Shown here in pieces: positions 45,587 to 64,000 of a DNA stretch of 64,000 bases. The position numbers and the translations under genes were made by a program. How positions within the stretch are numbered: the first letter of the stretch is position 1; every line of letters starts with the position of its first letter. The notes beneath the pieces were generated by a model. The model made no database searches. It saw nothing but the letters and a program-made list of their open reading frames with translations, and was not told where the DNA came from. The stretch spans positions 1 through 64,000 of the forward strand of contig CACAAX010000004.1 in NCBI GenBank assembly GCA_902530595.1. Reading direction: 5' to 3'. This stretch comes from an uncultured Alphaproteobacteria bacterium. Lineage in GTDB: Bacteria > Pseudomonadota > Alphaproteobacteria > Rhodobacterales > Rhodobacteraceae.

Positions 45587-45729
45587 GACATAAATAAAAA
45601 GGTTATTATATTTCAAAGCAAAGTATAATAATCAATGACATCAAAAAATAAACTATCCGTTCAGACAGTTGAATGTTCCAAGAGGGTGAACCTAATTTTT
45701 TTGTTACTGCGAAAAAGGCAGATTAGTAC

Positions 45730-46896: not shown

Positions 46897-46898
46897 AT

Positions 46899-47930: not shown

Positions 47931-48037
47931 ATAAAAAAATGTACGTTATGTCCATATGCTCAACTCTGCCCGAATGTGAGTATTATGGGTAGGTGGGTGA
48001 GAGTTTTTGGACGCCCGCCAAAAGAAGATTTGATTAA

Positions 48038-49030: not shown

Positions 49031-49039
49031 AAATCTCAG

Positions 49040-49807
49040 TTGTTAAAATTTAGTATAATCACAGTTTGTTTTAATTCAGCGAACACAATCGTAGAGACGA
49101 TCAATTCAGTTCATAGTCAGTCTTTTAAATCTTATGAGCATCTAATAATTGATGGGCTATCTACAGATGGAACCGTTGATATAGCGAAATCCCATCAAAG
49201 TGATAAAATAATACTTTTTTCAGAAAAAGATGATGGTCTGTATGATGCAATGAATAAAGGTATGTTTAAAGCGAAAGGTGAGTATATTATATTCTTAAAT
49301 TCGGATGACTTGTTTGCCGATGAATTTGTATTGGAGAAAATTAATTTGCTCGCCATAAATAGTCCTGACTTTATTTATGGTGGGATAAGCTATTTTTCCG
49401 ATAATGTATATAAGCAACGGACTTGGATCCCAGAAAGCTTTAAATATATCAAGGAAAAAAAGATACAATTACCACACCCGGCTATTTGTATAAAAAGGCT
49501 GCACCTAATTGAAAAAAATCGTCTATTTGATACTAAACTAAAAATTGCGGCTGATTTAAAGCAACAATTGGAAATCATACATTGTGATAATCGAACGGGT
49601 ATACTGATTGACGAAGTGTTAGTAAATATGCGTCTGGGTGGCAAAAGCACCAGAAACTTCGTAGCATTCTTATTGGGTTGGAAAGAGGCGTTGAGAGTTT
49701 ACAGGGATATTTTTGGTATTACCGGTTATTTTTATTGTTTTAGAAAAATTATTCAAAAATTACCGCAAATAAAAAAAAATTTTTATTTAAAAAAATTTGT
49801 AAGTTAG
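49040..49807 (+). CDS. Glycosyltransferase family 2
   Basis: This is a 255-residue GT-A transferase with FSIITVCFNSANTIVETINSV at the start and HLIIDGLSTDGT as the nucleotide-binding loop. The metal motif lies in EYIIFLNSDDLF, and a downstream HPAICIKRLHL block resembles the WcaA/colanic-acid type. It starts with TTG, with GGAG 13 bases upstream. No membrane helix is predicted; the C-terminus is strongly basic and aromatic (KIIQKLPQIKKNFYLKKF), which suggests membrane contact. It transfers one sugar of the repeat unit. It is the only clear GT2 gene in the window's part of the locus, so more must lie to the right or elsewhere. Confidence 0.88.
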   Translation: MLKFSIITVCFNSANTIVETINSVHSQSFKSYEHLIIDGLSTDGTVDIAKSHQSDKIILFSEKDDGLYDAMNKGMFKAKGEYIIFLNSDDLFADEFVLEKINLLAINSPDFIYGGISYFSDNVYKQRTWIPESFKYIKEKKIQLPHPAICIKRLHLIEKNRLFDTKLKIAADLKQQLEIIHCDNRTGILIDEVLVNMRLGGKSTRNFVAFLLGWKEALRVYRDIFGITGYFYCFRKIIQKLPQIKKNFYLKKFVS

Positions 49808-50132
49808 TACACGAATATTTTCAATTCACATGTTGTTACACCGCCAATGAAAAATGGAAAAGTTTTTTTTTGACAAATCATCAGATGTGGAAATGTTAAA
49901 ATAGTATGTCAAAAGTCAAACACTCAGCTCGTAGTGGTTGGCTCCTGCTTTATAAACTTGGCAGGACAAATAGCTTTATAGTTTCAAACAAGATAAATGA
50001 AAAAAAATATCAAAATTATCAGAATAGATAGTCCAGGATTAATGTCTTCTATGGCTTCAGAGCAAAAACTGTACAAAATGCTGGCTTCGTAACAAAGCTT
50101 TGTAAAAATCTACTATTAGAAAATTCTATTAT
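49808..50132. other. 325-base spacer with a weak promoter-like sequence
   Basis: No gene is seen. TTGACA near 49873 followed 18 bases later by TGTTAA could be a weak vegetative promoter for the ABC flippase gene. Short T and A runs after the GT2 stop may act as a weak terminator. Otherwise featureless. Confidence 0.35.
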
Positions 50133-51902
50133 ATGCTTCTCACGCTCAAAAACCTATTCCAAGTGCTGGACACCAATGACCGTAAATTACTGTACTCAGT
50201 TTTAATGTTTCTATTTTTTATTGGAATTTTTGAAATTTTAGGCATTGCGTCAATTATTCCAATTATTTCGATAATGAGTGATCCAGCGATATTGGACACA
50301 AATAAGTATCTCTTTGCGTTTAAAAAAATTGCGACAGATTTAGGCTATGGGCGACAACAAGAAATTCTTATATTGTTAGGGTTTTCATCGTTTAGTATGA
50401 TTGCGCTTGCAACCGCACTTCGTTCAATTGGTGTATATGTAACGACAAAATTTATTGAGATGCGCCGACACCATTTGAGCCATAAGCTTTTATCCGGGTA
50501 TTTAAGAAACGATTATGAGTTTTTTTTAAATTCTCAGTCCGCAGAGATAACGAAAATAGTGTTATCTGAAATTGATCGCATTGTTGCTCAACTTATCCGA
50601 CCACTAGTTATGATGGTATCATATATGTTCTTACTGATTTTTGTGCTTACATTCTTATTTTTTGTGAATCCTCAGGTATCAATGATTATTATACTGATTT
50701 TTGGTGGACTATATTCTTTTGTATATTTTCTAATTAGGTGGAAAGTTAATTATCTTGGGGTACAAACGGTACAATCAAATAGAGAACGCTTCGCTCTAAC
50801 AATGGAAGCCCTGAAAAATATTAAATATATAAAATACAGAGGATTAGAGGATTATTACATTAGAAAATTTTTTATTGCATCATATCAGTTTTCACATTCC
50901 GTTGCAGTACAATTTGTGTTGAATCAAATTCCCAAATACATAGTAGAGCTTGTAGCTTTTGGAGGATTAATCTTGGTTTCAGTGCTTACACTGATATCGA
51001 ATTCGGAATTAAACGGAAGCGTATCAAGTAGTTTTTTTCCTATGTTGAGCGCATACGCTCTGAGTGCTTACAAGCTACAACCGGCAGTTCAATCAATGTT
51101 TAATGGCATTGTTAGCCTAAGATACGGACGTGCTACGCTTGATAATCTTTTCAAATCTCTAGACCAGATCAATCCTTCCGGCAACCCTAATGGATTAGAA
51201 AAAAGTAATGTTGAAATAATATTTGATCAAGAATTTGAGAGTAGAGGGATTTCCTTCAAATATGCTAACGAAAAGTCTAATATTGTTGAAAACATCAATT
51301 TCAAAATTCCGAGAGGGTCTTCTGTAGGTATCATTGGTAAAACGGGGTCCGGTAAATCCACTTTAATTAGTCTTATACTAGGTTTGCTCCGACCTAACAC
51401 TGGAAGCTTTCTGGTTGATGGCAAGGAAATAAATGAGATAACTATGAGAAAGTGGCAAAAGATTATTGGTTATGTGCCACAGGATGTTACACTGATAGAC
51501 GCCACAATCTTTGAAAATATTGCCTTCGGCTCAGAGTTAAAAGATATTGATTCTGAGCATGCTATTAACTGTGGTCGAATAGCAATGATTGACGAAAGTT
51601 TTTTTTCGAATACTAACCAGAAGTATATAGGTGATGATGGGGTGAAAATATCAGGAGGGCAGAAGCAGAGAATTGGAATTGCACGCGCTCTGTATAAAAG
51701 ACCCAGTTTGTTGGTCTTGGATGAGGCCACAAGTGGATTAGATCCAAAAACGGAAAAACAAGTACTAGACAATATTTCCAAATATTCTAAGTGCATGTCT
51801 ATTCTTATGATTACGCATAAATATAAGAATCTTGGAATATGTGATGAAGTTTATGAATTACAAGATGGACATTTACGAAAATGTCAACGCAACATTGAAT
51901 AA
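50133..51902 (+). CDS. ABC-type glycan flippase (PglK-like)
   Basis: This is a 589-residue fused permease-ATPase. About six hydrophobic segments fill residues ~20-320, beginning with VLMFLFFIGIFEILGIASIIPIIS, a start that resembles PglK-type lipid-oligosaccharide flippases. The ATPase has Walker A GIIGKTGSGKST, Q-loop GYVPQDVTLID, signature ISGGQKQRIGIARAL, Walker B LLVLDEATSGLD and switch MITHKYK. It would act as a homodimer to flip an undecaprenyl-linked repeat or chain. No wzx or kpsT/M-type genes are seen here, so this may be the locus's flippase. The Wza/Wzz-like genes at 1.1-4.4 kb could handle later export. Confidence 0.88.
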   Translation: MLLTLKNLFQVLDTNDRKLLYSVLMFLFFIGIFEILGIASIIPIISIMSDPAILDTNKYLFAFKKIATDLGYGRQQEILILLGFSSFSMIALATALRSIGVYVTTKFIEMRRHHLSHKLLSGYLRNDYEFFLNSQSAEITKIVLSEIDRIVAQLIRPLVMMVSYMFLLIFVLTFLFFVNPQVSMIIILIFGGLYSFVYFLIRWKVNYLGVQTVQSNRERFALTMEALKNIKYIKYRGLEDYYIRKFFIASYQFSHSVAVQFVLNQIPKYIVELVAFGGLILVSVLTLISNSELNGSVSSSFFPMLSAYALSAYKLQPAVQSMFNGIVSLRYGRATLDNLFKSLDQINPSGNPNGLEKSNVEIIFDQEFESRGISFKYANEKSNIVENINFKIPRGSSVGIIGKTGSGKSTLISLILGLLRPNTGSFLVDGKEINEITMRKWQKIIGYVPQDVTLIDATIFENIAFGSELKDIDSEHAINCGRIAMIDESFFSNTNQKYIGDDGVKISGGQKQRIGIARALYKRPSLLVLDEATSGLDPKTEKQVLDNISKYSKCMSILMITHKYKNLGICDEVYELQDGHLRKCQRNIE

Positions 51903-52250
51903 AATAATCGATCTGCCCCCCGATGCTGACGTATCTTTTTTTGTTAAACATGGTTTTTTTAACATAGCAAAAAGCCAGGGATTTGATTTGATGTGGTTAG
52001 CAATCCAACAATGACTACTAACAACTCTATAAACCGATAACTTATAATATGTAATGTTACAGCCATATTGGACTTAGTAAAGACGTGTGTGTTTATACTA
52101 AAAATTCTTCCTTCTTTTTTCTTACGGAGTGACCAACTTATAACGTATATTTTGCGTCAACGATTTGAAGGGATTGTTACTGGAGATTGTATTCTTAGTG
52201 ATTATCAAAGAAATCTAAAGACAGAAACTATTATTAGTATTGGCATATAA
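51903..52250 (+). pseudogene. Decayed paralogue of the 33.9-35.4 kb transferase
   Basis: Two short frames in succession match the N-terminal third of the transferase encoded at 33864-35414. Frame one reads IIDLPPDADVSFFVKHGFF (compare ILDLSPDKGFSYYWKNSLF). After a stop and frame change, frame two reads RQRFEGIVTGDCILSDYQR (compare NIRFKGIQVGDCILSVYFR). The rest of the gene is absent. It begins directly after the flippase stop, so an intact copy was probably once part of this operon. The match between the two sites was made by eye from the given translations. Confidence 0.7.
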
Positions 52251-52350
52251 TATTGACGCTGTTAACATAAATGCCTCTGTTTTCTATATTCAAAATTGTA
52301 TCCGCAAAAAAGGATATCTTATCAAAGCGTAAATTAAATAGGAGAATATC

Positions 52351-53187
52351 TTGTTAAAACTAAATAAAGTAACAAACCAAGGTTCAAACCCCTTTCCATA
52401 TGTAGTAATAGAAGACGCGTTCGGATGTGGGTCCTCACTAAATGTTGACTTTCCTACTCATGATGAATTTGCATCTTCGATGCGTATGGATAAAGATATG
52501 TCGTATCCTGCCCAAAATTATTTGCATCTAATAACTCAAAAAAAGTTATATAATTCATTGCATAATTTTGTATATTCAGAACATTTTGTTGAACATTTTC
52601 TAGATTTTTTCCGTGATGACATCGAAAAAAGAGTAGCGTCCGGTGAATTATTGTTTAATCCGTTTGAGCTGCCAATAATAAGCAGTCCGTATGAGACATC
52701 TATATTCGATATGAATGCAAATTCTGATCAGGCACCATTCCTTTTTCCCCGTCTTGATTTGGGTTATGGTGGTGTAAAATATGGAAAAGATAACGGCGGT
52801 GCAGGCATTCACACAGACAATGCTGGACGTCTGATTTCAATATTATACTACGTAAATACACCTGACAATATGGTTGGTGGTGAGCATCGAATGTATAAGA
52901 TCGAGAATAGGAAACCAGTTGTGGCAAAAGAAGTCGAGCCGTATGAGGGGCGTTTGCTGGCATCATTGCAAACAAACTATGCCCTGCATGATGTTAACCC
53001 GATAACTCGTATTAACGGCTACAGAAAAGCATTTTATTTAGCTGTGAGTTGTAACAAGCCAATTTGGCGCACATCTGAGGGCTGGATGATGAAATTAACA
53101 TCTAATAGAGATCCCGAGAAACATGCAAAAAGTTTTACACCACTAAATGCTATTAAAAGAATATTGAGACGCAAACTACTTCGTTGA
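52351..53187 (+). CDS. 2-oxoglutarate/Fe(II) oxygenase family protein
   Basis: This 278-residue protein has a double-stranded beta-helix iron site: His154 and Asp156 in GIHTDNAGR, a distal His213 in YALHDVNP, and the 2OG-binding Arg225 in GYRKAFYLAV. The strand between (LISILYYVNTP) matches prolyl-4-hydroxylase-like members found in glycan and lipopolysaccharide loci. It has no signal peptide, so it acts in the cytoplasm, on a nucleotide sugar, lipid-linked sugar or aglycone. Translation starts at TTG 52351 behind AGGAG. It follows the decayed transferase gene and precedes the MurB-like gene, separated from the latter by about 140 bases. The substrate is unknown. Confidence 0.8.
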   Translation: MLKLNKVTNQGSNPFPYVVIEDAFGCGSSLNVDFPTHDEFASSMRMDKDMSYPAQNYLHLITQKKLYNSLHNFVYSEHFVEHFLDFFRDDIEKRVASGELLFNPFELPIISSPYETSIFDMNANSDQAPFLFPRLDLGYGGVKYGKDNGGAGIHTDNAGRLISILYYVNTPDNMVGGEHRMYKIENRKPVVAKEVEPYEGRLLASLQTNYALHDVNPITRINGYRKAFYLAVSCNKPIWRTSEGWMMKLTSNRDPEKHAKSFTPLNAIKRILRRKLLR

Positions 53188-53327
53188 TTATATAAGAAGT
53201 CATTCCGCGGTATAATTGGTATAGATTAACTTAATATCGAATGTAGTATTCTTTCAACCAGAACTACAAATTCTATGTAATGAAATTTTGCACTTATGCA
53301 GGTGATTGATTTTTATGCGAAGATGTC

Positions 53328-54410
53328 ATGTTAAGCAAAATTACGAAGATATGTGATGTTTATGGTATACCGTATAAACGGGAATACAACTTAGGTAAGA
53401 ATAGTTATTCAAGAACCGGCACAAAGTTGCGAATTGCTATATTTCCGCTCTCCAGGGAACAACTTCTCAATTTACATAGATCGTTCATATATGAGGATAT
53501 TGATTATAAGGTACTTGGTAATACCACGAATGTTTTGTTTTTAGACTCCCAGATTTATAAATGCTTTGTCTTTACCACGATGCTAACTGACTATGAATTG
53601 TATAAGAATTCTGTGATTGTCGATTGCGGAAGATCTGTAACTGAATTTGTTCGCGACTTATCCATGCATAGCATAACAGGCTTTGAAGGGTTGGAAGGTA
53701 TCCCAGGGACGATTGGAGGTGCTCTAAATATGAATGCTGGGGCTTATGGGTATTGTATTACAGATAACCTTATCGATGTGGACTTTATAGACAGTGACAC
53801 AAATGTGCGTAGAATTGCAAAATCAGATCTGACGATACTGAATAGATCGATACCGCAACTAAAAGATAAAATAATTTTATCGGCTAAATTTAACTTAGTA
53901 GAAGGAGTTCATAGCAGAATTGAAAAGCTAACAAGAAAGTTTCATATAAGCAGGCATCAATATCAGGAATGGGTTTACCCTAATTTAGGTAGTATTTACA
54001 TTGTACCGAGTTTGAATATTAATCAAGATTTGCGTAAAATCCATACAAAACAAAATATTGCTATCATGGTCTTATACTGGCTTTTGTTTAAAATTTGGTT
54101 TACTAGACCGTTATTCGTTATTCGGAGACTCTTTCCAAGTTTTAATTTTCCTTTTCGACTACTCAAATTCTTAAAAATTAAAAGTTATAATTCGGAGGTT
54201 GCATCGAAGACAACAGTCAATACTTTTGCTAATAAAAACTATTCAACTTTAGAATTATTAGAGTATTTTGTGCAATTACATAAAGATTCTAACGGAATGA
54301 TTAAATTAGAAAATGAAATTTACATAGAAAATATTGACACAGTTTTAGACCCAGATATGCGAGCACGTCAATTAAAACTAGCTAGTAAACTTTCACGGTC
54401 GAAACTTTAG
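53328..54410 (+). CDS. MurB-like FAD-binding protein in a glycan locus
   Basis: This is a 360-residue relative of UDP-N-acetylenolpyruvoylglucosamine reductase. Matches to MurB are the FAD loop GLEGIPGTIGGALNMNAGAYG (about residues 119-139), the catalytic-serine loop PNLGSIY (about 218-224), the late ASKTTVNTFANKN strand and the terminal LENEIYI with its Glu (about 326-332). Between residues ~238 and 290, where MurB has its substrate domain, there is a hydrophobic and basic insert (IMVLYWLLFKIWF, LFVIRRLFPSF) that could bind membrane. It is unlikely to be the housekeeping MurB, which is encoded with ftsQ and ddl. A redox step on an unusual enolpyruvyl- or unsaturated sugar is possible. Confidence 0.75.
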   Translation: MLSKITKICDVYGIPYKREYNLGKNSYSRTGTKLRIAIFPLSREQLLNLHRSFIYEDIDYKVLGNTTNVLFLDSQIYKCFVFTTMLTDYELYKNSVIVDCGRSVTEFVRDLSMHSITGFEGLEGIPGTIGGALNMNAGAYGYCITDNLIDVDFIDSDTNVRRIAKSDLTILNRSIPQLKDKIILSAKFNLVEGVHSRIEKLTRKFHISRHQYQEWVYPNLGSIYIVPSLNINQDLRKIHTKQNIAIMVLYWLLFKIWFTRPLFVIRRLFPSFNFPFRLLKFLKIKSYNSEVASKTTVNTFANKNYSTLELLEYFVQLHKDSNGMIKLENEIYIENIDTVLDPDMRARQLKLASKLSRSKL

Positions 54411-54434
54411 ATACATTAAACGATAGGATTACAA

Positions 54435-55877
54435 ATGAATAACATCGTTCACCCAGTCATCTTGTGCGGAGGATCTGGTACTCGCCTTTGGCCATTGTCA
54501 CGGAAGTCGTTTCCAAAACAATTTACTAAAATTGTTGGGGACAAGAGTCTATTTCAACTGACCGCTAATCGGCTAAGCGGAGATAGCTTTTCCGAACCGT
54601 TAATAATTACAAGTTCGGAGTATCGTTTTATAGCGCTTGAGCAATTGGGGGCTTCAAGGTTAACACCATCAAGCATGTTGGTTGAGCCTTCTGCAAAAAA
54701 TACCGCAGCGGCTACATGTGTCGCGGCACTGGAATTAGAAGCGACGTCACCGAACAGTTTGATGCTATTAGCACCGTCAGATCATGTCTTGCCGGATGTT
54801 GAAAATTTTGTAAAGGCTATTGATAAGGCAATTCCCATAGCGAACGATGGTGAAATCGTTACTTTTGGTATCTATCCAGATAGAGCAGAGACTGGGTATG
54901 GTTGGTTAGAACTTAGTGAGAGCACAAATGAAAGGGATGCTAACAAACCCATTAGCTTGCTAGATTTTATCGAAAAGCCACCTAAAGATGTTGCAGAAAG
55001 GATGCTGCAATGCGGCAACTATCTTTGGAACAGTGGAATATTCCTTTTTAAAACCTCTACAATTTTAAATGCATTTAAAGAACATGCTCCAGAAATTTTA
55101 GAAACTGCAAAGCGTGCGTTGTTGGATAGCAAGCAAGATGTATGGTTCAAGTGGTTAAACTCAGATTTTTGGGCCGAACTTCCGGACATATCAATTGATT
55201 TTGCTATTATGGAAAAAGCTTCAAATCTTTCAGTGATTCCATTGAGTGGCAAATGGTCAGATCTTGGGGATTGGCAAGCCTTGTGGCAAAATAATTTGCG
55301 TGATGAGCGTGGGGTAGCCACTCATGGTTCAGCGATAAGTATCGACTGCGATAATTCATTAATATTTTCATCAGATGAGAAACAGCAGGTAGTTGGTATC
55401 GGTTTGGAAGATGTGATTGTGGTCGCGATGCCAGATGCAGTGCTCGTAGCCCATAAAGACAAGGCACAAGATGTGAAAGCGGCAGTAGCTATTTTGAAAG
55501 ATCATAATGTGTCGCAGGCCGAACAATTGCCCCGCGATTACCGGCCTTGGGGTTGGTACGAAAGTCTGGTTACCGGTCCACGCTTTCAGGTAAAACGAAT
55601 TGTAGTGAGTCCAGGTGCCGCATTAAGTTTGCAGAGTCATAACCACCGGTCTGAGCATTGGATTGTTGTTGAAGGCACTGCAAAAGTCACCATTAATGAA
55701 GAAGAGCAGTTGATTACTGAAAATCAATCAGTATATATTCCACTCGGATCGAAACACAGATTACAGAACCCCGGTAAAGTTTCGTTAACTTTAATAGAAG
55801 TGCAGACTGGGACTTATTTTGGGGAGGATGATATTATTCGTTATGAAGATCTATATGCAAGAGATGCGGTTATTTAG
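54435..55877 (+). CDS. manC: Mannose-1-phosphate guanylyltransferase / mannose-6-phosphate isomerase
   Basis: This is a 480-residue type II bifunctional enzyme. The N-terminal nucleotidyltransferase shows ILCGGSGTRLWPLSRKSFPKQF and the EKPPKDVAERML segment. The C-terminal cupin domain shows RPWGWYESLVTGPRFQVKRI and the metal-binding QSHNHRSEHWIVVEGTA with its histidines. It isomerises fructose-6-P to mannose-6-P and couples mannose-1-P to GDP. With the phosphohexomutase at 44.2 kb this completes GDP-mannose synthesis. It begins 24 bases after the MurB-like gene. No GDP-mannose dehydratase is seen in the window, so GDP-mannose may be used directly. Confidence 0.95.
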   Translation: MNNIVHPVILCGGSGTRLWPLSRKSFPKQFTKIVGDKSLFQLTANRLSGDSFSEPLIITSSEYRFIALEQLGASRLTPSSMLVEPSAKNTAAATCVAALELEATSPNSLMLLAPSDHVLPDVENFVKAIDKAIPIANDGEIVTFGIYPDRAETGYGWLELSESTNERDANKPISLLDFIEKPPKDVAERMLQCGNYLWNSGIFLFKTSTILNAFKEHAPEILETAKRALLDSKQDVWFKWLNSDFWAELPDISIDFAIMEKASNLSVIPLSGKWSDLGDWQALWQNNLRDERGVATHGSAISIDCDNSLIFSSDEKQQVVGIGLEDVIVVAMPDAVLVAHKDKAQDVKAAVAILKDHNVSQAEQLPRDYRPWGWYESLVTGPRFQVKRIVVSPGAALSLQSHNHRSEHWIVVEGTAKVTINEEEQLITENQSVYIPLGSKHRLQNPGKVSLTLIEVQTGTYFGEDDIIRYEDLYARDAVI

Positions 55878-55932: not shown

Positions 55933-57183
55933 ATGAATGATATAATGGATGAAAAAATATGTATAGTAGGATTGGGATATGTAGGATTACCATTAGCTCT
56001 CGCCTTAAGTGAGCGCTTTAAATGTGTAGGTTTTGATATCAATAAAAAGAGAATTAGCGATTTATCCAAACACGTTGATATTAATCTTGAACACAGCCCG
56101 CTTGAGATCGCCAACTCTAGTCTAAAATTAACTAGCAACTTAGAATCAGCTGGAGCTTGCTCAATATTTATTGTTACGGTTCCAACCCCAATCACAGAAA
56201 ATAAAGTCCCAGAGTTAAGTCCTCTTATCCACGCATGCCGGATGGTGGGCCAAGTTCTTAAGAAAGGGGATTTGGTGGTATTTGAATCTACTGTTTACCC
56301 TGGATGTTCAGAGAATTTTTGTGGTCCAATATTGCAGGAAGAATCAGGCTTGGCCCAAGGAGAAGATTTTAGTATTGGTTATAGCCCTGAACGAATTAAT
56401 CCTGGTGACAAAGTTAATACAATCAAGACAATCAAAAAAGTTGTATCAGGTGATAGCAAGAAATCTCTGGAACGGGTATCACATTTATACAGCTCGGTTA
56501 TTACTGCTGGAGTGTATAAAGCACAAAGCACTATGGTTGCAGAGGCAGCAAAACTAACTGAAAATATTCAAAGAGACGTAAACATAGCCTTGATGAACGA
56601 GTTGGCATCAATTTATAGCGCAATGGACCTTCGTATGAACGAAGTTCTAGATGCTGCTGTAACAAAGTGGAATTTCATACCATTTCGGCCAGGTCTAGTA
56701 GGAGGTCACTGCATTGGAGTTGATCCGTATTATTTTATTGATACTGCAAAAAAAATGAGCCTTAAAACTCCACTTGTTAGTACGGCACGTCAAATCAATG
56801 ATAACGTAGTCCCCCGTATTTTGAGTAAATTCCGAGACCAGGTGCAAAAGGTTCATAATCGATCTTTAGTGATGGGCATTACATTTAAAGAAAATTGTAA
56901 TGATCTGCGCAATTCAAAAGCGCTTGAGCTTGCCAATAATTTGTCAAATTTAACTTCAGTGCATGTATTAGAACCTAATATTGAGTTACTGCCCATTGAC
57001 AACTTGGAATTAGTTGAAAGCTTTTCAGGAGCTCCCTACGACTGCGTAATTATTGCAGTGAAACACCATCAATTCCAGAGTTTAACGATTGATTTCGTTA
57101 GAGAATTGGTTGGCGATGTAGGATATATTTATGACTTACATGATATTTTCGGGTACAGTGGTGAAAGAATTTTTACACTATGA
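55933..57183 (+). CDS. Nucleotide-sugar 6-dehydrogenase (WbpA/TviB/WbpO type)
   Basis: This is a 416-residue UDP-HexNAc-type dehydrogenase. The Rossmann start is [16 protein letters not shown]. The block YSPERINPGDKVNTI and the AAKLTENIQRDVNIALMNELA helix place it with UDP-GlcNAc/GalNAc dehydrogenases of Vi-antigen and O-antigen loci rather than with UDP-glucose dehydrogenases. The catalytic cysteine is in GLVGGHCIGVDPYYF. It would make a UDP-N-acetylhexosaminuronate. It overlaps the SpsF-like gene by four bases and is the first gene of the tight module that runs to the right edge. Which epimer it uses is not clear. Confidence 0.9.
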   Translation: MNDIMDEKICIVGLGYVGLPLALALSERFKCVGFDINKKRISDLSKHVDINLEHSPLEIANSSLKLTSNLESAGACSIFIVTVPTPITENKVPELSPLIHACRMVGQVLKKGDLVVFESTVYPGCSENFCGPILQEESGLAQGEDFSIGYSPERINPGDKVNTIKTIKKVVSGDSKKSLERVSHLYSSVITAGVYKAQSTMVAEAAKLTENIQRDVNIALMNELASIYSAMDLRMNEVLDAAVTKWNFIPFRPGLVGGHCIGVDPYYFIDTAKKMSLKTPLVSTARQINDNVVPRILSKFRDQVQKVHNRSLVMGITFKENCNDLRNSKALELANNLSNLTSVHVLEPNIELLPIDNLELVESFSGAPYDCVIIAVKHHQFQSLTIDFVRELVGDVGYIYDLHDIFGYSGERIFTL

Positions 57184-57872
57184 CAATGGTCTTGATACAA
57201 GCCCGGATGTCGTCAAAGAGATTACCTGGGAAAATACTCAAAAGAATTAATGGGCAACCCATCCTTGGTCATGTCGCTGCTAGATGTGAGAGTATTGTCG
57301 GAAAACAAAACATAGTTATAGTAACTTCTAACGAAGATAGTGATGCTCCAGTGGTTCAGTTTGCAAAAAGTCACGGATACCGCTTTTACTGTGGGTCTTT
57401 GGCAAATGTGTATGATCGTCTTGTCGGAGCGATTTTGACATATGGAATTGATCATTTCGTAAGAGTTTGTGGTGATAGTCCTTTTTTGCATCCCGAAATA
57501 TTAGCTCAGGCATTAACGCACTACAGAGGTAATAGTGTTGACTTAGTCACCAATGTTTTTCCACGTAGTTATCCAAAAGGACAATCTGTAGAAGTGATCC
57601 GTTCATCTACTTTTCTGGCTCCAGAATACACTAATTTAAATGGGTTCTCTAATGAACATGTAACAAAAGGCTTTTACTCATGTTACACTAAATATACCAT
57701 TTTAAACTTCAGCTGTTCTCATGCGACATCAAAAGGTTTAAGAACGTGGGCGGTAGACACTAAGGAAGATTTTGTTTTGATAAGCGAGTGGATAAAGAAA
57801 TATCCTCAAGGTCCTGGGTCATTTCCAAAATCTCAGATAAAAATTTATAACCCCAAGATTGCTGATGCTTAG
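57180..57872 (+). CDS. SpsF-like cytidylyltransferase
   Basis: This is a 230-residue nucleotidyltransferase with the CMP-sugar synthetase-type start LIQARMSSKRLPGKIL. It has the block ANVYDRLVGAILTYGIDHFVRVCGDSPFLHPEIL and a VTNVFPRSYPKGQSVEVI segment, a pattern typical of SpsF proteins from Bacillus spore-coat and bacterial glycan loci. It presumably activates a sugar acid with CTP, but no SpsF substrate is firmly known to me. It overlaps both the dehydrogenase and the oxidoreductase genes. The nearby NeuB-like synthase suggests a nonulosonate-like acceptor. Confidence 0.85.
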   Translation: MTMVLIQARMSSKRLPGKILKRINGQPILGHVAARCESIVGKQNIVIVTSNEDSDAPVVQFAKSHGYRFYCGSLANVYDRLVGAILTYGIDHFVRVCGDSPFLHPEILAQALTHYRGNSVDLVTNVFPRSYPKGQSVEVIRSSTFLAPEYTNLNGFSNEHVTKGFYSCYTKYTILNFSCSHATSKGLRTWAVDTKEDFVLISEWIKKYPQGPGSFPKSQIKIYNPKIADA

Positions 57873-58848
57873 AGTTGGGGTGATAGGGCTCGGTGTTGGA
57901 GAGCAGCATATTTATGGGTTTAATCAGAGTGTGCACTCGAAAACTACACGGATCTGTGATAATGATACCGTTAAGCTAGCTGATGTATCAGCTCGAAGTG
58001 GAGTTAAAGATACAACTGAAAATGCCGCCGATATCATACTAGATCCGGAAATTGATGTTGTCTCAATTGCAAGTTATGATGAATTTCATGCGCAACAAGT
58101 AATAATGGCATTAGATACAGGGAAACACGTCTTTGTAGAAAAACCTATTTGCCTCACCTTATCAGAGCTTGACTGTATCTGTGATGCATATGAACGCTCA
58201 CGGAGAAGGGGTGAAAAACTCAAGGTTTCATCTAACTTTATTTTGCGTCACGAAGAACGATTTTTGAAACTTAAAAAACGCATCGAAGCTGGCGAACTTG
58301 GTGAAATTTATTTGGTTGAAGGTAGCTATGACTATGGCCGTGTAGGCAAATTAACTAACGGTTGGCGTGCCAACACACAGAAATACTCAGTGATGCACGG
58401 TGGCGGAATACACATATTGGATTTGTTCGTATGGTTAACTGGACAAAAATTCGAACCACATTCAAGTTTGACCAACAAAGTTGTGACCAGTCAAACTAAG
58501 TTTCGACCAAATGATCTAATTCTAACTATTGGTAAGTTTGGTGATAACATCTTGGGCAAAATCAGTGCTAATTTCGGTTCACAAACTCAACATTTCCACC
58601 AACTCAAGATATACGGCACAAAGGGTACCTTTATTCATGATTGCGACTCAGCATCCTATTTTTTTGGCAGTGAACCAGAGGTTGTAAGAGAACGTGACGT
58701 CACCCCTTTTCCTGCTACAATGAAGGGAGATTTATTGCCTGGTTTTATATCAGAAATTGTAAGTGGTGCGCCTTCGTCAATAGATTTTAATCATATTGAG
58801 CAAATTATGCGAACATCTTTGGCGATTGAAGCCCAAGCGCTTTCATAA
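57865..58848 (+). CDS. Gfo/Idh/MocA-family sugar oxidoreductase
   Basis: This is an NAD(P)-dependent oxidoreductase of about 327 residues. The dinucleotide motif reads VGVIGLGVGEQHIYG, followed by SIASYDEFHAQQV and HVFVEKPICLTLSEL, which holds the EKP active-site lysine. The C-terminal sheet domain contains VMHGGGIHILDLFVWLTG with the expected histidine. I start at ATG 57865, overlapping the SpsF-like stop; the tracked TTG is six bases earlier. Similar enzymes oxidise or reduce ring carbons of nucleotide sugars, or act in legionaminic-acid-like pathways (PtmF group). The substrate is unknown. Confidence 0.85.
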   Translation: MLRVGVIGLGVGEQHIYGFNQSVHSKTTRICDNDTVKLADVSARSGVKDTTENAADIILDPEIDVVSIASYDEFHAQQVIMALDTGKHVFVEKPICLTLSELDCICDAYERSRRRGEKLKVSSNFILRHEERFLKLKKRIEAGELGEIYLVEGSYDYGRVGKLTNGWRANTQKYSVMHGGGIHILDLFVWLTGQKFEPHSSLTNKVVTSQTKFRPNDLILTIGKFGDNILGKISANFGSQTQHFHQLKIYGTKGTFIHDCDSASYFFGSEPEVVRERDVTPFPATMKGDLLPGFISEIVSGAPSSIDFNHIEQIMRTSLAIEAQALS

Positions 58849-58850
58849 AG

Positions 58851-59558
58851 ATGGTAATGTATTGTTCAAAAGACGTTTGGTTAACTGAATGCGTCGACTT
58901 CCCTTGCTATATGACCAATCAGGAATTTAGACCTCAAACAACCGAGCAGCTACTAGAGCAGCATAATTCTTTATTTATTACGTGCAAAGTCCTACAAAAT
59001 GATCTGGAAAGTCAGAAGCTCGCGATATCCCTTGGCTTTGTGCAGATCAATAATCAACTTACGTTTGCTTGTCGACAAGATAATCTTGTTAAACTTAATG
59101 AAGTAGACAAATTGAGTTTTGTTTTCTCATGCACCAATGAATTAGGTTCGGAACTAGTGCGCTTCGCTCCTTTTTTCTTGACAGACAGATTCCGTCAGGA
59201 TGTCCGCCTTCCAAAGGTTTGGTCGATGTTAATTAAGTCAAAATGGCTAAAAGCTCCAAAAGAAAATAAATCAGTTTTATTAGCAAAGCTTAAGAATAAA
59301 ATTGTCGGGTTTGTTTTACTAAAACAACTTAATCATGCTCTTATCATTGATTTAATTGCCGTCGACCCTCGTCACCGTGGCAAAAAAATTGGTTCACAAT
59401 TACTTGCTGAATTAAAAAGACATCTAGGTAAAGAACAACGGCTTGAAGTTGGTACCCAATGTAATAACTTGGCTGCAATACAACTTTATAGTTCTAATGG
59501 ATTCACTTGCGTCATGAACAAAAAAGTGTACCACTATTTTAATCATTGTAATGAATGA
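58851..59558 (+). CDS. GNAT-family N-acetyltransferase
   Basis: This is a 235-residue protein whose C-terminal half is a GNAT fold. The acetyl-CoA loop is IDLIAVDPRHRGKKIGSQLLAEL, with a following RLEVGTQCNNLAAIQLYSSNGF strand. The N-terminal ~110 residues are less conserved and contain short strands consistent with a second, degenerate GNAT domain. This layout resembles sugar N-acetyltransferases such as WecD-like enzymes that act on 4-amino sugars, but there is no aminotransferase in the window to make such a substrate. It begins two bases after the oxidoreductase stop. Next to a NodB deacetylase and a formyltransferase, it fits a scheme of swapping acyl groups on an amino sugar. Confidence 0.8.
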   Translation: MVMYCSKDVWLTECVDFPCYMTNQEFRPQTTEQLLEQHNSLFITCKVLQNDLESQKLAISLGFVQINNQLTFACRQDNLVKLNEVDKLSFVFSCTNELGSELVRFAPFFLTDRFRQDVRLPKVWSMLIKSKWLKAPKENKSVLLAKLKNKIVGFVLLKQLNHALIIDLIAVDPRHRGKKIGSQLLAELKRHLGKEQRLEVGTQCNNLAAIQLYSSNGFTCVMNKKVYHYFNHCNE

Positions 59559-59706
59559 GATGCGATATCACGACTCTTGAAATTTAAATAAATTTAATAA
59601 GGGTAAATAATAAATTTTTTAATTTTAAGTGCAAAAAGTTTCGTCTTCGCACTGACCGCTGATGAATAAAAATCTACATTGTCAATAAGCTCTCAAGGAG
59701 AAAAAT

Positions 59707-60405
59707 ATGGCAGGAAAAAGCTTAAACTTTATAGCTGAGATCGGTTTGAACCATAATGGGAATTTTGGACTTATTTTTGAGTTGATTAAACAAGCTTCAT
59801 ATTCAGGGGCTGATTTTGTAAAATTCCAGTTGGGTTGGCGTGCACAGCCTGGTGAAATAAACCAATTAAAAAAAGAAGACATTGAACAAATAATAAAATC
59901 TTGCCAGCATTTTAATATAAAGCCTCTTTTTTCCGTATTTAATTTTGCTGCGTTCGAACTAGCTGAACGTTTTGGTATGCAGGATTATAAAATTGCGTCA
60001 AGGACTGTGATTGAGGATCCGCAGCTAGTCAGAAAAGTTATCGAAACAGAAAAATCAGTGTATATATCATTGGGAATGACCCAAGAGACGCATCCGTTTG
60101 CCTTCTCAAACAATATACACTACCTTTGGTGTCAATCTTTATATCCAATACACCCTTGGGAAGTTACAGCCTTTCCGAAGAAGTTTGATCAGAAGGGTGT
60201 GGCAGGATTTAGTGATCACTCTATTGGAATTGAGTTGGCATTAATTGCGGTTATGCGTGGTGCGACTATTATTGAGAAGCATTTCACACTCGATAAGTCA
60301 GATGTAACAATTAGAGACCACGCACTTTCGCTCACACCAGATGAATTCAAAACAATGGTTAACTCTGGAAGAGAGATCAAAAAATATCGTGACCTCGGAA
60401 TATGA
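59707..60405 (+). CDS. Short NeuB-like (nonulosonate/PEP-aldolase family) synthase
   Basis: This is a 232-residue TIM-barrel protein of the NeuB family, which condenses PEP with an amino sugar. Recognisable blocks are FIAEIGLNHNGN, SGADFVKFQ, YKIASRT, and GVAGFSDHSIGIELALIAVMRGATIIEKHFTL. The last contains the metal/PEP-site residues, and it is followed by the DHALSLTPDEF motif. Normal NeuB has about 340-350 residues with a C-terminal SAF (antifreeze-like) domain. Here the protein ends after the barrel, and the next gene overlaps its stop by four bases, so the domain is absent rather than out of frame. A good AAGGAG site precedes the ATG. The exact substrate is unknown. Confidence 0.85.
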   Translation: MAGKSLNFIAEIGLNHNGNFGLIFELIKQASYSGADFVKFQLGWRAQPGEINQLKKEDIEQIIKSCQHFNIKPLFSVFNFAAFELAERFGMQDYKIASRTVIEDPQLVRKVIETEKSVYISLGMTQETHPFAFSNNIHYLWCQSLYPIHPWEVTAFPKKFDQKGVAGFSDHSIGIELALIAVMRGATIIEKHFTLDKSDVTIRDHALSLTPDEFKTMVNSGREIKKYRDLGI

Positions 60406-61118
60406 AAACACTTATTTTAACTACAGATACATCGCACCATAATTACTTTGTTAGAAAGCTAATAAGTTGCAATTTTGAGGTAATTGTAGTCTATGAAAAT
60501 ACAAGTGTAGTCGCACCGTACCCAGTGCATCACCCTTTTGAACAAGATAGAGAAGAATTTGAGCTTGAATTATGGGGATGCGAGGCATCAACACTACAAA
60601 GTGATGAAGTTACACGATTAATTAGGGTCAACAACATAAATGATCTCGGTAATGAGTCAAAACTTATTCAAGACGCAGATGTTTGCATTGTGTTTGGAGC
60701 CCGTAAAATACGAAAAACTATAATTCAAAGGCTTCCGAATCTATCGGTTAACTTACACGGAGGTGATCCCGAGCTTTACAGAGGCTTAGATAGCCACTTA
60801 TGGGCAATCTGGCACCGACATAAACAAGGACTTAAGACTTGTTTGCATCTACTAAGTACTGAACTGGATGCAGGGCAGATAGTGGAAATGAAAGAGCTTG
60901 ATATTAATAGAAATTTTTCATTGAAGAGTCTTCGTGCTTTGAACACTTCTATGTGTTTCGAATTATGTAACTTGTTTTTAGAAAAAATTGAACTTGGAAA
61001 AGATATAAACTTTAAAACGCAAAAAAGTACTGGACGTTATTATTCTTTCATGCCAAGGGACTTGAAGGACCACGTGTTGAGGATATTTGAAAACCCAAAC
61101 CGGGATTGGCACTTATGA
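60402..61118 (+). CDS. Formyltransferase-family protein
   Basis: This is a 238-residue protein of the Fmt/ArnA-N family, which uses 10-formyltetrahydrofolate to formylate an amino group. The active-site region appears as SVNLHGGDPELYRGLDSHLWAIWHR, in place of NLHPSLLPxYRG; Asn-His are kept. The catalytic aspartate segment is STELDAGQIVEMKEL. The N-terminal Rossmann half (TLILTTDTSHHNYFVRKLI) is less typical. No C-terminal OB domain is present, unlike methionyl-tRNA formyltransferase, so sugar N-formylation is more likely. It overlaps the NeuB-like gene before it and the deacetylase gene after it by four bases each. Confidence 0.8.
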   Translation: MKTLILTTDTSHHNYFVRKLISCNFEVIVVYENTSVVAPYPVHHPFEQDREEFELELWGCEASTLQSDEVTRLIRVNNINDLGNESKLIQDADVCIVFGARKIRKTIIQRLPNLSVNLHGGDPELYRGLDSHLWAIWHRHKQGLKTCLHLLSTELDAGQIVEMKELDINRNFSLKSLRALNTSMCFELCNLFLEKIELGKDINFKTQKSTGRYYSFMPRDLKDHVLRIFENPNRDWHL

Positions 61119-62041
61119 GGTTTGATGTCTGCAGTAATTTTCTCTCTGAAAATTCGCTGTGTGTATTCTTGTTACATGGCGTAGTAAAAAACTCAAATTA
61201 CCACTATCGGAATTTTAATCGTAAACATATTTTAGCGGAAGAATTTGATTTTTTTCTAGAGACTCTAATGAAAAACGGTACTCCAGTATCAATGGATAAC
61301 CTGATAGAATACTCTAATGAAAAAATGATGCCTGAAAATGCATTCGCTATTACATTCGATGATGGGTTTGAAAATAACCTATCCGTTGCGGCTCCAATTC
61401 TAAAACAGTACAATGTGCCTGCGACCTTTTATCTTACCACTGATTTTGTTGCCAATAATACCATGAGTTGGATTGATAGAATTGATTGGGCGTTTGAACA
61501 AAGCGTTGCATGTCCTTTAATTGAGATAAGTGTTCCTTGGAGGAAAATACCGGTCAAACTTGAAGCCCCGTCATCTAGATTGTCGTTTTTAAACGAAATA
61601 AGAAAAACTGTGAAAAATGATCGTTCAATTAATCAACATAAATTATCGAGCAGCATCCAACGGCAGCTTGGATATCAAGTGGTGTATTCAGGTACGTCAG
61701 AAATCGATACTAAGTTAAATTGGGAAGATGTGAAATGTTTGGAGCAGTGCGATTTATTCACAATTGGAGGACATACACATAGTCATCCGATCATGTCTTT
61801 TCTGTCGGAAACTGAATTACTTCACGAGATTGGGTATTGTCTATCTCTTTTAAAGAAACATGCCGGAATTACGACAAAACATTTTGCTTATCCCGAGGGA
61901 ATGTCTAACTGTTATAATCAAAAAGTTATAAAATCTTTAAAAAGCTTCGGTATAAAATGCTGTCCAACTGCTGAGCATGGTGTTAATCAAATAAGCTCTA
62001 AATCCGATTTATTTAAACTAAAACGTATTTTTGTGGATTAA
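61115..62041 (+). CDS. NodB-type polysaccharide deacetylase family protein
   Basis: This is a 308-residue carbohydrate esterase 4 relative. The metal and catalytic motifs are FAITFDDGFENN (Asp-Asp), GGHTHSHPIM (two histidines) and FAYPEGMSN. No signal peptide is present, so it should work in the cytoplasm on a nucleotide- or lipid-linked sugar rather than on mature polymer. The start is ATG 61115 in an ATGA overlap with the formyltransferase stop; the tracked TTG is nine bases earlier. Removal of an N-acetyl group here would expose an amine for the formyltransferase or GNAT enzyme. That order is an inference. Confidence 0.88.
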   Translation: MRFDVCSNFLSENSLCVFLLHGVVKNSNYHYRNFNRKHILAEEFDFFLETLMKNGTPVSMDNLIEYSNEKMMPENAFAITFDDGFENNLSVAAPILKQYNVPATFYLTTDFVANNTMSWIDRIDWAFEQSVACPLIEISVPWRKIPVKLEAPSSRLSFLNEIRKTVKNDRSINQHKLSSSIQRQLGYQVVYSGTSEIDTKLNWEDVKCLEQCDLFTIGGHTHSHPIMSFLSETELLHEIGYCLSLLKKHAGITTKHFAYPEGMSNCYNQKVIKSLKSFGIKCCPTAEHGVNQISSKSDLFKLKRIFVD

Positions 62042-62045
62042 ATTG

Positions 62046-63875
62046 ATGTGTGGGATCGCTGGATACATTGGTCATAAGGTTATACCGAAAATCAATTTAG
62101 AAAAATGTCTCACACAGTTGTATGCACGGGGTCCAGATGACCGAGGCATCTACAAATACAATGATGGGGGACTGAATGTTGGACTTTTGCATAGCCGCTT
62201 GTCTATTTTGGATCTAGACAATCGTTCCGCACAGCCATTTTATTTTCAAAAATATGTGTTTTCATACAATGGAGAAATTTATAACTATCTTGAGTTGAGG
62301 GAGGAATTAGAAGCGTTAGGCCATAAGTTCCAAACAAATGGTGATACAGAAGTTTTGGCTGTGGCCTGGGCCAAATGGGGTAAGGAAGCGCTGAACCGAT
62401 TTGATGGCATGTGGGCTCTAGCGGTATTTGACACTAGTTCCAATACACTTACTCTTTCAACTGATCCCTTTGGCGAGAAACCGTTATTTTATATGCGGGG
62501 AACCGACGGTACCGTTTGGTTTGGCTCACAAATTGACTGCTTGATGACTTTGGCTGACGAGAAGCCACGGCCAAATTGGCGGCACCTTAAGCGTTATTTA
62601 GTAAATGGTTATAAATCACTTTATAAATATGAAGATAGTTTTGTTGAAGGAGTTGTACGTCTGCCTGGCAACCGGGTTATGGAAATTTCTATTAGTGGAA
62701 TTAGTGAAAGACCATATTGGAAAAGACCATCATACACGCCAGATTTTACCATTAAGCGCGATGATTTCGTGGCTGAAGCTCGTGCAACTTTGATAGATAG
62801 TGTCTCCAGAAGATTACGTTCAGACGTACCATTAGCTTTTTGTATGAGTGGTGGTATTGATAGTAACTCAATTATAGCTATTGCAGCGGCACATTTGGGA
62901 TTTGATGTACATGGGTTCACTATCATGAACAACGACGGACGTTATGATGAGCAAGAATTAGTCGAACTATCATCACGGGAATTAAACGTGCGAAACGAAA
63001 AAATCATTTTACGGCAGGAAGATTTTTTACCCGTTTTGCAATCAATGATAAAAGCTCGCCATGGGCCTGTAGCCACTATTTCATATTACACACAAAATCA
63101 TCTATATAGAGCCATTAGTGATAAAGGATATAAAGTGGCGCTTAGCGGCACCGGAGCTGATGAAATGTTTAGCGGATATTACGACCATCATTTGCTTTAT
63201 TTAAGTTCTAAGTTTGAGGACTCCATGCAGTATTCGCAAGCATTGCAAAATTGGAAGCATTTTGTTGAGCCAGTTATTCGGAATCCATTACTCAAAGACC
63301 CGGAAATGTATCTTGAAACTCCAAGCGCACGAGCGCACGTGTATTATAAAAATAACTATTATGCTGAATTTTTTTTAGACTCATGGCACGAACCATTTGT
63401 GGAAACTTTTTATTGTGGTTCATTGATGCGTAATAGAATGATGAATGAATTATTTCACGAAGCAGTACCTGTCATTTTAGCTGAAGATGACCATAACGCC
63501 ATGATGTATTCTATAGAAAATAGATCCCCTTTCTTATCACGTGACTTGTTAGAGCTTTGTTTGAAAATCCCTGATCGTGAATTAATTAAAAATGGTTTCG
63601 CAAAATCTATCCTGAGAGAAGCTATGGTCGGATTGGTTCCAAAAAGAATTTTAGAAGAGCGACGCAAAGTGGGCTTCAATTCTTCATTGTTTGAATTGGT
63701 TGATATCCACTCAAACAATTTTCGAGAAATGTTACTTGACAATAGTATATTTTATGATGTTATCGACCGGGCTCGAGTAGAGATGTTTTTGAGGCAAGAC
63801 CTTTCGTTAAATAGTGACAGCAAATTTCTGTTTAACTTAATTAATGCCAAGATGGCTATAGATATAATGGAATAG
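62046..63875 (+). CDS. AsnB-like glutamine amidotransferase (asparagine synthase family)
   Basis: This is a 609-residue protein that must start at ATG 62046 so that Cys2 is N-terminal after Met removal (MCGIAGYIG), the nucleophile of class II glutaminases. The glutaminase domain continues with RGPDDRGIY, HSRLSILDLDNRSAQPF and YNGEIYNYLELREEL. The synthetase domain has the PP-loop SGGIDSNSIIAIA and GTGADEMFSGYYDHH. In glycan loci these enzymes (WbpS, AsnB group) usually amidate sugar carboxylates such as uronic acids rather than aspartate. It lies between the deacetylase and the WbpG-like gene, which supports that role. Confidence 0.88.
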   Translation: MCGIAGYIGHKVIPKINLEKCLTQLYARGPDDRGIYKYNDGGLNVGLLHSRLSILDLDNRSAQPFYFQKYVFSYNGEIYNYLELREELEALGHKFQTNGDTEVLAVAWAKWGKEALNRFDGMWALAVFDTSSNTLTLSTDPFGEKPLFYMRGTDGTVWFGSQIDCLMTLADEKPRPNWRHLKRYLVNGYKSLYKYEDSFVEGVVRLPGNRVMEISISGISERPYWKRPSYTPDFTIKRDDFVAEARATLIDSVSRRLRSDVPLAFCMSGGIDSNSIIAIAAAHLGFDVHGFTIMNNDGRYDEQELVELSSRELNVRNEKIILRQEDFLPVLQSMIKARHGPVATISYYTQNHLYRAISDKGYKVALSGTGADEMFSGYYDHHLLYLSSKFEDSMQYSQALQNWKHFVEPVIRNPLLKDPEMYLETPSARAHVYYKNNYYAEFFLDSWHEPFVETFYCGSLMRNRMMNELFHEAVPVILAEDDHNAMMYSIENRSPFLSRDLLELCLKIPDRELIKNGFAKSILREAMVGLVPKRILEERRKVGFNSSLFELVDIHSNNFREMLLDNSIFYDVIDRARVEMFLRQDLSLNSDSKFLFNLINAKMAIDIME

Positions 63876-63878
63876 TAA

Positions 63879-64000
63879 GTGCGATATTGTCGAAATTGTG
63901 TCCTTCCTGACTCACGGCCAAACCTGACTATAAATGCTGAGGGGTTTTGTACCGCTTGTAAAACATCTGAAGAAAAACCACTAATAGATTGGGAACTTCG
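63879..64000 (+). CDS. N-acetyl sugar amidotransferase (WbpG/PseA-like), 5' end only
   Basis: The gene runs off the right edge. A GTG start three bases after the AsnB-like stop reads VRYCRNCVLPDSRP, then AEGFCTACKTSEE. The paired CxxC motifs (CRNC and CTAC) and the MPD/LPDxRP pattern are the N-terminal zinc-binding start of WbpG/PseA/LegG-type amidotransferases. These work with HisH2/HisF2 to turn an acetamido group into an acetamidino group. It was not in the ORF track because it is partial. If correct, hisH/hisF-like genes should follow outside the window. Confidence 0.75.
   Translation, partial: MRYCRNCVLPDSRPNLTINAEGFCTACKTSEEKPLIDWEL

Follow-up and report, generated by a model that had tools for sequence, protein, structure and literature searches.

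A surface-polysaccharide locus of an uncultured Rhodobacteraceae bacterium carries, in direct succession, genes for a short NeuB-like synthase, a sugar N-formyltransferase and a NodB-type deacetylase, and this triad plus a cytidylyltransferase forms a conserved core around related short NeuBs in other bacteria. The module probably makes an acidic sugar activated with cytidine monophosphate (CMP), and represents a real, conserved and apparently undescribed variant of ulosonic acid biosynthesis. Ulosonic acids are a defining feature of many bacterial cell-surface glycans. The DNA studied here (the window) comprises the first 64,000 bases of contig CACAAX010000004.1, which is 82,749 bases long and belongs to an assembly of 1.36 Mb that is 62% complete; this completeness applies to every statement below that a gene was not found in the assembly. 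A sequence-only reading of the window had assigned nine genes between 55933 and 64000 to one candidate new nonulosonate-like sugar, built on a NeuB without its SAF domain. All nine are present there or nearby on the + strand, with essentially the functions it gave them, and the conserved core is narrower than this nine-gene set. A search of open-access papers found no description of the SAF-less clade or of the NeuB-formyltransferase-deacetylase triad, and within that literature the module is, as had been supposed, not already characterised.

A clade of NeuB proteins without a SAF domain

The short NeuB (232 residues, 59707-60405, + strand, stop at 60405) is a phosphoenolpyruvate (PEP) aldolase barrel without the SAF domain. 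It matches PF03102 with 128.7 bits (gathering cut-off 22.1) and hence belongs to the NeuB superfamily, while it stays far below the equivalog cut-offs for NeuB (TIGR03569; 134 versus 399.65 bits) and PseI (106.5 versus 340.25 bits). The SAF domain PF08666 has no match anywhere in the 62% complete assembly, and the open reading frame ends approximately 73 residues before the end of canonical NeuB. Moreover, 24 relatives stop at the equivalent position, and the 62% complete genome shows no remnant of a SAF domain; the short form is therefore no artefact of truncation, and the reading as a canonical NeuB shortened by a frameshift or an early stop was discarded. The absence of a SAF domain, as claimed from the sequence alone, is therefore confirmed.

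A scan with one genome per species yielded 21 loci with NeuBs that are roughly 48-67% identical and of similar length (the one in locus L077 is frameshifted), and scans of the class and phylum to which the window belongs added further short NeuB loci. When placed in one tree together with 13 canonical NeuBs, the short forms (220-232 residues) constitute a single clade (support 100/100), within which the branching is poorly resolved; its neighbour in the tree (100/99) is a more distant short form encoded on a plasmid of Azospirillum. Clade members occur in eight phyla, namely, Pseudomonadota, Bdellovibrionota, Bacteroidota, Fidelibacterota, Nitrospirota, Thermodesulfobacteriota, Planctomycetota and Cyanobacteriota, and include abundant ocean bacteria such as the SAR11 group, SAR86 and Prochlorococcus. 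The short NeuB is present in 9 of 399 genomes of the phylum, with forms among them that are nearly identical to one from a Magnetococcales record, whereas in the 21 genomes of the same genus no NeuB match exceeds 41% identity. This patchy spread suggests that the clade has moved horizontally. A scan of viral contigs retrieved no relatives of the short NeuB, phages contributed only two distant NeuBs, and plasmids a single distant short form (the Azospirillum one, 36% identical and adjoining asnB), the other plasmid matches being weaker and mostly annotated as ordinary NeuB or PseI. GC content is even over the window (35-40%), and a foreign island recognisable by base composition is thus unsupported.

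The acceptor side of the short NeuB

In canonical NeuB, the SAF domain lends Arg314 to the active site of the partner subunit; in the meningococcal enzyme this is the sole SAF residue in the active site, where it positions the N-acetyl group (PMC6795526). A comparison of 22 short forms with 62 NeuBs nearly all of canonical length, mapped to N. meningitidis numbering, showed that E25, K53, Q55, K129, S132, S154, Y186, S213, H215, E234, H236 and D247 are kept in all 22, including the PEP- and metal-site residues E25, K53, K129, S132, S154, H215, H236 and D247. The acceptor side is altered. The loop that bears Asn74 has 10 residues in the short forms versus 20-39 in the canonical ones, and where 54/62 canonical NeuBs have an acidic residue (Glu134 in N. 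meningitidis), all 22 short forms have Thr (T100). This Thr is preceded by an invariant Arg (R99), which is outside the six commonest canonical residues at that position (58/62 accounted for); the same is true of the invariant Arg45 (61/62 accounted for). Arg203, which adjoins the D247 equivalent, is also invariant in the short forms, and 5/62 canonical forms have Arg there.

The AlphaFold2 model is a confidently predicted barrel (predicted local distance difference test 89.5, predicted template modelling score 0.90), and its best solved matches are NeuB and 6NCS, followed by PseI, SpsE and 3-deoxy-D-arabino-heptulosonate 7-phosphate (DAHP) synthases. Relative to the NeuB/LegI/PseI synthases (e.g., N. 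meningitidis NeuB, 1XUU/1XUZ, and Campylobacter jejuni PseI, 8H2C), the short NeuB thus shares the barrel fold and all mapped PEP- and metal-site residues, but has no SAF domain and hence no Arg314, a shortened Asn74 loop, Thr with a preceding invariant Arg in place of Glu134, and scores under the equivalog cut-offs. As judged from these residues, it is very likely an active PEP aldolase with a changed acceptor, probably performing the same reaction chemistry on a different, and presumably negatively charged, substrate.

SAF-less NeuBs as such are not new. The Leptospira borgpetersenii NeuB-like protein (PDB 6NCS, 290 residues) has a NeuB barrel, is shorter than canonical NeuB and is the best profile match of the clade, but it is longer than the clade members, and Asp, with no Arg before it, takes the place of Thr at its acceptor position. 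Shewanella oneidensis SfmA (SO_3261, 290 residues), a NeuB-domain protein too short for a barrel and a full SAF domain and encoded in a sugar-modification operon (PMC3765264), is apparently a second case; it is also longer, its partners are IlvB-like, short-chain dehydrogenase/reductase (SDR), methyltransferase and ATP-grasp proteins, and it is likened to the clade by description, not by sequence.

A conserved triad and linked cytidylyltransferases

Twenty-five loci were compared (the window, L053, L056, L058-L077, L092 and L107), some of which end at contig ends. In 11 of these, from four phyla (the window, L058, L060-L064, L075-L077 and L092), the short NeuB is directly followed by the formyltransferase and then by NodB, and the latter two occur in the same 11 loci, always as a pair. 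Vibrio sinus S4M6 is a cultured carrier of the triad. In the window, the formyltransferase (238 residues, 60402-61118, +) is of the ArnA/PseJ kind and the cytoplasmic NodB/PgaB-type deacetylase is encoded at 61115-62041 (+); at both junctions the genes overlap by ATGA, the arrangement seen in translational coupling. For NodB, the ATG at 61115 is a better start than the TTG at 61106, and the protein appears, as judged by eye, to have no signal peptide.

Both partners have intact catalytic motifs. The Asn-His-Asp triad (N117, H119, D156) is invariant in all 10 formyltransferases compared, which identifies them as sugar N-formyltransferases, and the Asp-Asp (FDDG in the window) and HxxxH metal motifs are invariant in 11/11 NodB proteins, as expected of the CE4/NodB family. 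By profile, the formyltransferase is closest to ArnA (8e-16) and PseJ (1e-14), with which it shares the Asn-His-Asp triad; unlike these, it is a family of its own that accompanies a short NeuB in all genomes found to encode it, including the only two (of 399) in the phylum. Exchange of an acetyl for a formyl group by NodB and the formyltransferase is somewhat probable, and the conserved triad fits the earlier proposal of deacetylation followed by re-acylation. A DegT aminotransferase homologue accompanies the triad only in L058, L063 and the downstream region of the window. The other 8 of the 11 triad loci show none in the sequence examined, some being cut by contig ends; in these, the amine for formylation is therefore more likely to come from NodB than from transamination.

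A cytidylyltransferase lies near the short NeuB in 20 of the 25 loci, and its type varies: SpsF, PseF, KdsB, a GT2-cytidylyltransferase fusion, or a fusion of cytidylyltransferase and 2-hydroxyacid dehydrogenase. In the window it is an SpsF-like protein (PF02348, 230 residues, 57180-57872, +), a likely CMP activation step, and SpsF homologues are also near the short NeuB in L058, L061, L062, L070, L075 and L077. Four of the five loci without a cytidylyltransferase (L060, L065, L068 and L107) are contig ends or short stretches, and L107 shows the dehydrogenase part of the cytidylyltransferase-dehydrogenase fusion. Activation to a CMP-sugar can thus be regarded as likely, in agreement with the CTP activation first proposed. 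The co-occurrence that the sequence-only reading had suggested searching for (short NeuB, SpsF, formyltransferase and cytoplasmic NodB) was accordingly found for the triad, with SpsF as the cytidylyltransferase in some loci only.

Other genes were observed beside short NeuBs. The fusion of a D-2-hydroxyacid dehydrogenase and a cytidylyltransferase often comes with a small GT2 protein (L059, 7578-9311) and recurs in L064, L071-L074, L092 and L107, with the dehydrogenase part only in L062. A Radical SAM/SPASM protein is located near a short NeuB and a second NeuB fused to SpsF in L066 (1803-3119), and also in L053, L067 and L069.

Accessory genes and the polysaccharide locus

The module sits within a surface-polysaccharide locus that spans about 43.4 kb to 76.6 kb of the contig, in which several functions were assigned by reading the sequence and not by profile search. 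Its left part (43372-55877, +) encodes GalU, phosphomannomutase, a uridine diphosphate (UDP)-sugar dehydrogenase and epimerase, an SDR, GT2, an ABC exporter, a MurB-like protein and ManC, the functions at 43372-49807 being read from the sequence; glycosyltransferases are also present in the window part. The MurB-like flavin adenine dinucleotide protein (360 residues, 53328-54410), ahead of ManC, could make a lactyl-ether sugar. CysD and CysN/C genes at 38015-41406, which directly adjoin the short NeuB in L058 (6535-9374), hint at a sulfated polysaccharide. Further right on the contig are a polysaccharide pyruvyl transferase-like protein, glycosyltransferases, a polymerase-like membrane protein, GMD-like enzymes and a fucose synthase-like enzyme. 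Elsewhere in the genome, a second cytidylyltransferase cluster (L005, 4458-9386, on another contig) contains a DAHP-synthase paralogue, AroE-like and Gfo/Idh/MocA proteins, a GT2-cytidylyltransferase fusion and a PseF-like enzyme; it looks like a second set of PEP aldolase and CMP-transferase, perhaps for a seven-carbon ulosonate.

Besides the triad and SpsF, the nine-gene run contains a UDP-N-acetylhexosamine (HexNAc) C6 dehydrogenase of the TviB/WbpA type (416 residues, 55933-57183, +; TIGR03026, 346 bits), a Gfo/Idh/MocA oxidoreductase (329 residues, 57859-58848, +), a GNAT acetyltransferase (235 residues, 58851-59558, +), an AsnB-type glutamine amidotransferase (62046-63875, +; TIGR01536, 363.6 bits, cut-off 267.1) and a WbuX/WbpG N-acetyl sugar amidotransferase that starts at 63879 and continues past the window edge to 65006 (+; TIGR03573, 332.1 bits, cut-off 203.2). 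The last of these is the enzyme first described as WbpG/PseA-like. For AsnB, the ATG at 62046 is the better start, giving the Cys-2 nucleophile (MCGIAGY). The nine genes, all on the + strand, are mostly overlapping or closely spaced as had been described, except for a gap of 148 bases between the GNAT and NeuB genes, which leaves a single operon unproven. A sigma-70 promoter scan around the NeuB start scored barely above shuffled sequences and was not used.

Only the triad and a cytidylyltransferase recur. The window shares the WbpA-type dehydrogenase, Gfo/Idh/MocA (67% identical, adjoining SpsF), AsnB, WbuX/WbpG, a 120-residue protein and a hexapeptide protein with its nearest relative, L058, but the other triad loci do not carry this accessory set as a whole. 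A WbpA-type dehydrogenase homologue is near the short NeuB in 10 of the compared loci, while the combination of AsnB with WbuX is confined to the window and L058, whose AsnBs are just 28% identical to each other. A joint action of the nine genes on a single sugar, as first proposed, is hence improbable. AsnB, WbuX/WbpG, the UDP-HexNAc dehydrogenase, Gfo/Idh/MocA and GNAT are better described as accessory, and may serve other sugars; the WbpA-type dehydrogenase, Gfo, AsnB, WbuX and the 120-residue and hexapeptide proteins may either decorate the same residue or build another. The 120-residue protein, which belongs to no family and directly follows WbuX (L003, 4996-5358), is 47% identical in L058.

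Proposed route and alternatives

In the proposed route, the short NeuB would add pyruvate from PEP to an aldose unlike the sialic, legionaminic and pseudaminic acceptors, probably a negatively charged one, to give a 3-deoxy-2-ulosonic acid. Its conversion to a CMP-sugar would fall to the cytidylyltransferase encoded nearby, which is SpsF in the window and a KdsB-, PseF- or fusion-type enzyme in some other loci. The NodB-type enzyme would N-deacetylate the sugar or a precursor of it, the ArnA/PseJ-like enzyme would then add an N-formyl group to the freed amine, and the residue would go into the surface polysaccharide assembled by this locus, with AsnB and WbuX probably amidating or amidinating it or a neighbouring HexNAc-uronate residue. 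Gene content, the clade, the intact catalytic residues, the altered acceptor residues and the conserved linkage are the observations on which this route is built; its substrate, acceptor charge, order of steps and product are what we infer. An ulosonate is within this evidence, but the nine carbons implied by the term nonulosonate go beyond it. Several points weigh against the route. No hydrolase of the NeuC or PseG kind, which would release the aldose from its nucleotide, was detected in the 62% complete assembly, so that no gene can be assigned to supplying the acceptor. SpsF lies three genes from NeuB across the 148-base gap in the window and in a divergent WbpA-SpsF-Gfo unit apart from the triad in L058, so that the pairing of these two enzymes is a putative one. 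L076 (SAR86) has the triad and no cytidylyltransferase within 10 kb, a true exception, and the three arginines were located via alignment and motif positions rather than measured on the model. As a whole (ulosonate synthesis by the short NeuB, CMP activation and acetyl-to-formyl exchange), the route has about an even chance of being right.

No enzyme reaches the equivalog cut-offs for NeuB, PseI, PseB, PseC, PseH, LegB or LegC. For the pseudaminic acid pathway, in addition to PseI, the PseC-like DegT protein (273.8 versus 423.5 bits) and the GNAT as PseH (15.6 versus 93.1) fall short, PseB scores 32 against a cut-off of 407.75, and PseG has no match in the assembly; for the legionaminic acid pathway, LegB reaches 60.9 of 475 bits and LegC 192.8 of 420. 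As regards the sialic acid pathway, the 62% complete assembly shows no match to the NeuC-type epimerase family PF02350. The statement that the usual partners are not seen therefore holds for PseB, PseG and the NeuC type within this incomplete assembly, but needs amending for the region 2-3 kb past the window edge, where a PseC/LegC-like DegT aminotransferase (contig positions 65949-67127; best family PseC) and a dehydratase-like SDR of the RmlB/LegB kind (67121-68182; RmlB 93 bits) begin. These two genes permit a reading as a diverged legionaminic- or pseudaminic-type pathway, in which the SDR would act as the dehydratase, DegT as the aminotransferase and either GNAT or the hexapeptide protein as the acyltransferase. 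The hexose would be set free by a hydrolase that was not seen, short NeuB and SpsF would complete the activated sugar, and the formyltransferase would give an N-formyl derivative such as 5-N-formyl-legionaminic acid. DegT is kept in L058 at 69% identity, and this acid is known from Halorubrum sp. PV6, which likewise has a CMP-ulosonate route with a linked putative N-formyltransferase; Halorubrum, however, encodes LegB, LegC, LegH, LegG (NeuC type) and LegI, and the text of that paper mentions no deacetylase (PMC6137143). With scores far under the cut-offs, the partners not found in the 62% complete assembly, the scarcity of DegT among the triad loci and the changed acceptor-side residues of the short NeuB, this explanation is unlikely, and the rightward extension of the contig does not establish a variant of a known pathway.

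A division of labour between several sugars is about as plausible as its opposite, and is compatible with the core of the proposed route: the triad would make one residue, and another residue of the polysaccharide, an amidated or acetamidino HexNAc-uronate, would come from the WbpA-type dehydrogenase, Gfo, DegT, the hexapeptide transferase, AsnB and WbuX. The free variation of all genes other than the triad and cytidylyltransferase and the divergent unit in L058 favour it, whereas no WbpI/NeuC-type epimerase and no HisH/HisF partner were seen near WbuX. In its specific form as the Pseudomonas aeruginosa Wbp diacetamido-uronate pathway (WbpA, B, E, D, I, G) it is unsupported, as Gfo first matches inositol-dehydrogenase types (also its nearest solved relatives) and not the solved WbpB/WlbA, DegT is nearer to ArnB than to WbpE, and PF02350 is not found in the 62% complete assembly. 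A role of the short NeuB in forming a substituent that is a small keto acid or not a sugar at all, as is conceivable for SfmA, is considerably less probable. The sfm operon is needed for flagellin modification with a nonulosonic acid bearing an extra group of 236-264 Da, and its host has PseB and PseC homologues in addition to this NeuB-domain protein of just 290 residues (PMC3765264). SfmA, compared by description, is longer than the clade members, and the recurrent cytidylyltransferase beside the short NeuB points instead to CMP-sugar activation. Substitution for 3-deoxy-D-manno-octulosonic acid (Kdo)-8-phosphate synthase, with Kdo as the product, was also considered, as the next two genes in the three SAR11-group loci L072-L074 encode a KdsB-like enzyme and a HAD phosphatase. 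It was rejected as extremely improbable, because canonical KdsA is encoded separately in 7/9 genomes tested, including the window's own, and the KdsB adjoining the short NeuB is a second copy in the SAR11-group genomes checked; the short NeuB rather seems to have its own activating enzyme.

Implications

Taken furthest, the clade would be a new class of ulosonic acid synthase that holds an acidic (uronate or phosphorylated) acceptor with clade-specific arginines and that, with the formyltransferase-deacetylase pair, yields an N-formylated CMP-ulosonic acid unknown in any glycan, spread horizontally among marine and aquatic polysaccharide loci; this is a tentative proposal, which is conceivable yet rather doubtful in its entirety. 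The compact three-gene module makes it directly testable in vitro. Surface sugars of ocean bacteria influence recognition by phages and grazers. If the proposal is true, a SAF-less NeuB would read its acceptor in another way, and bacterial ulosonic acid chemistry would be wider than the sialic, legionaminic, pseudaminic and Kdo set.

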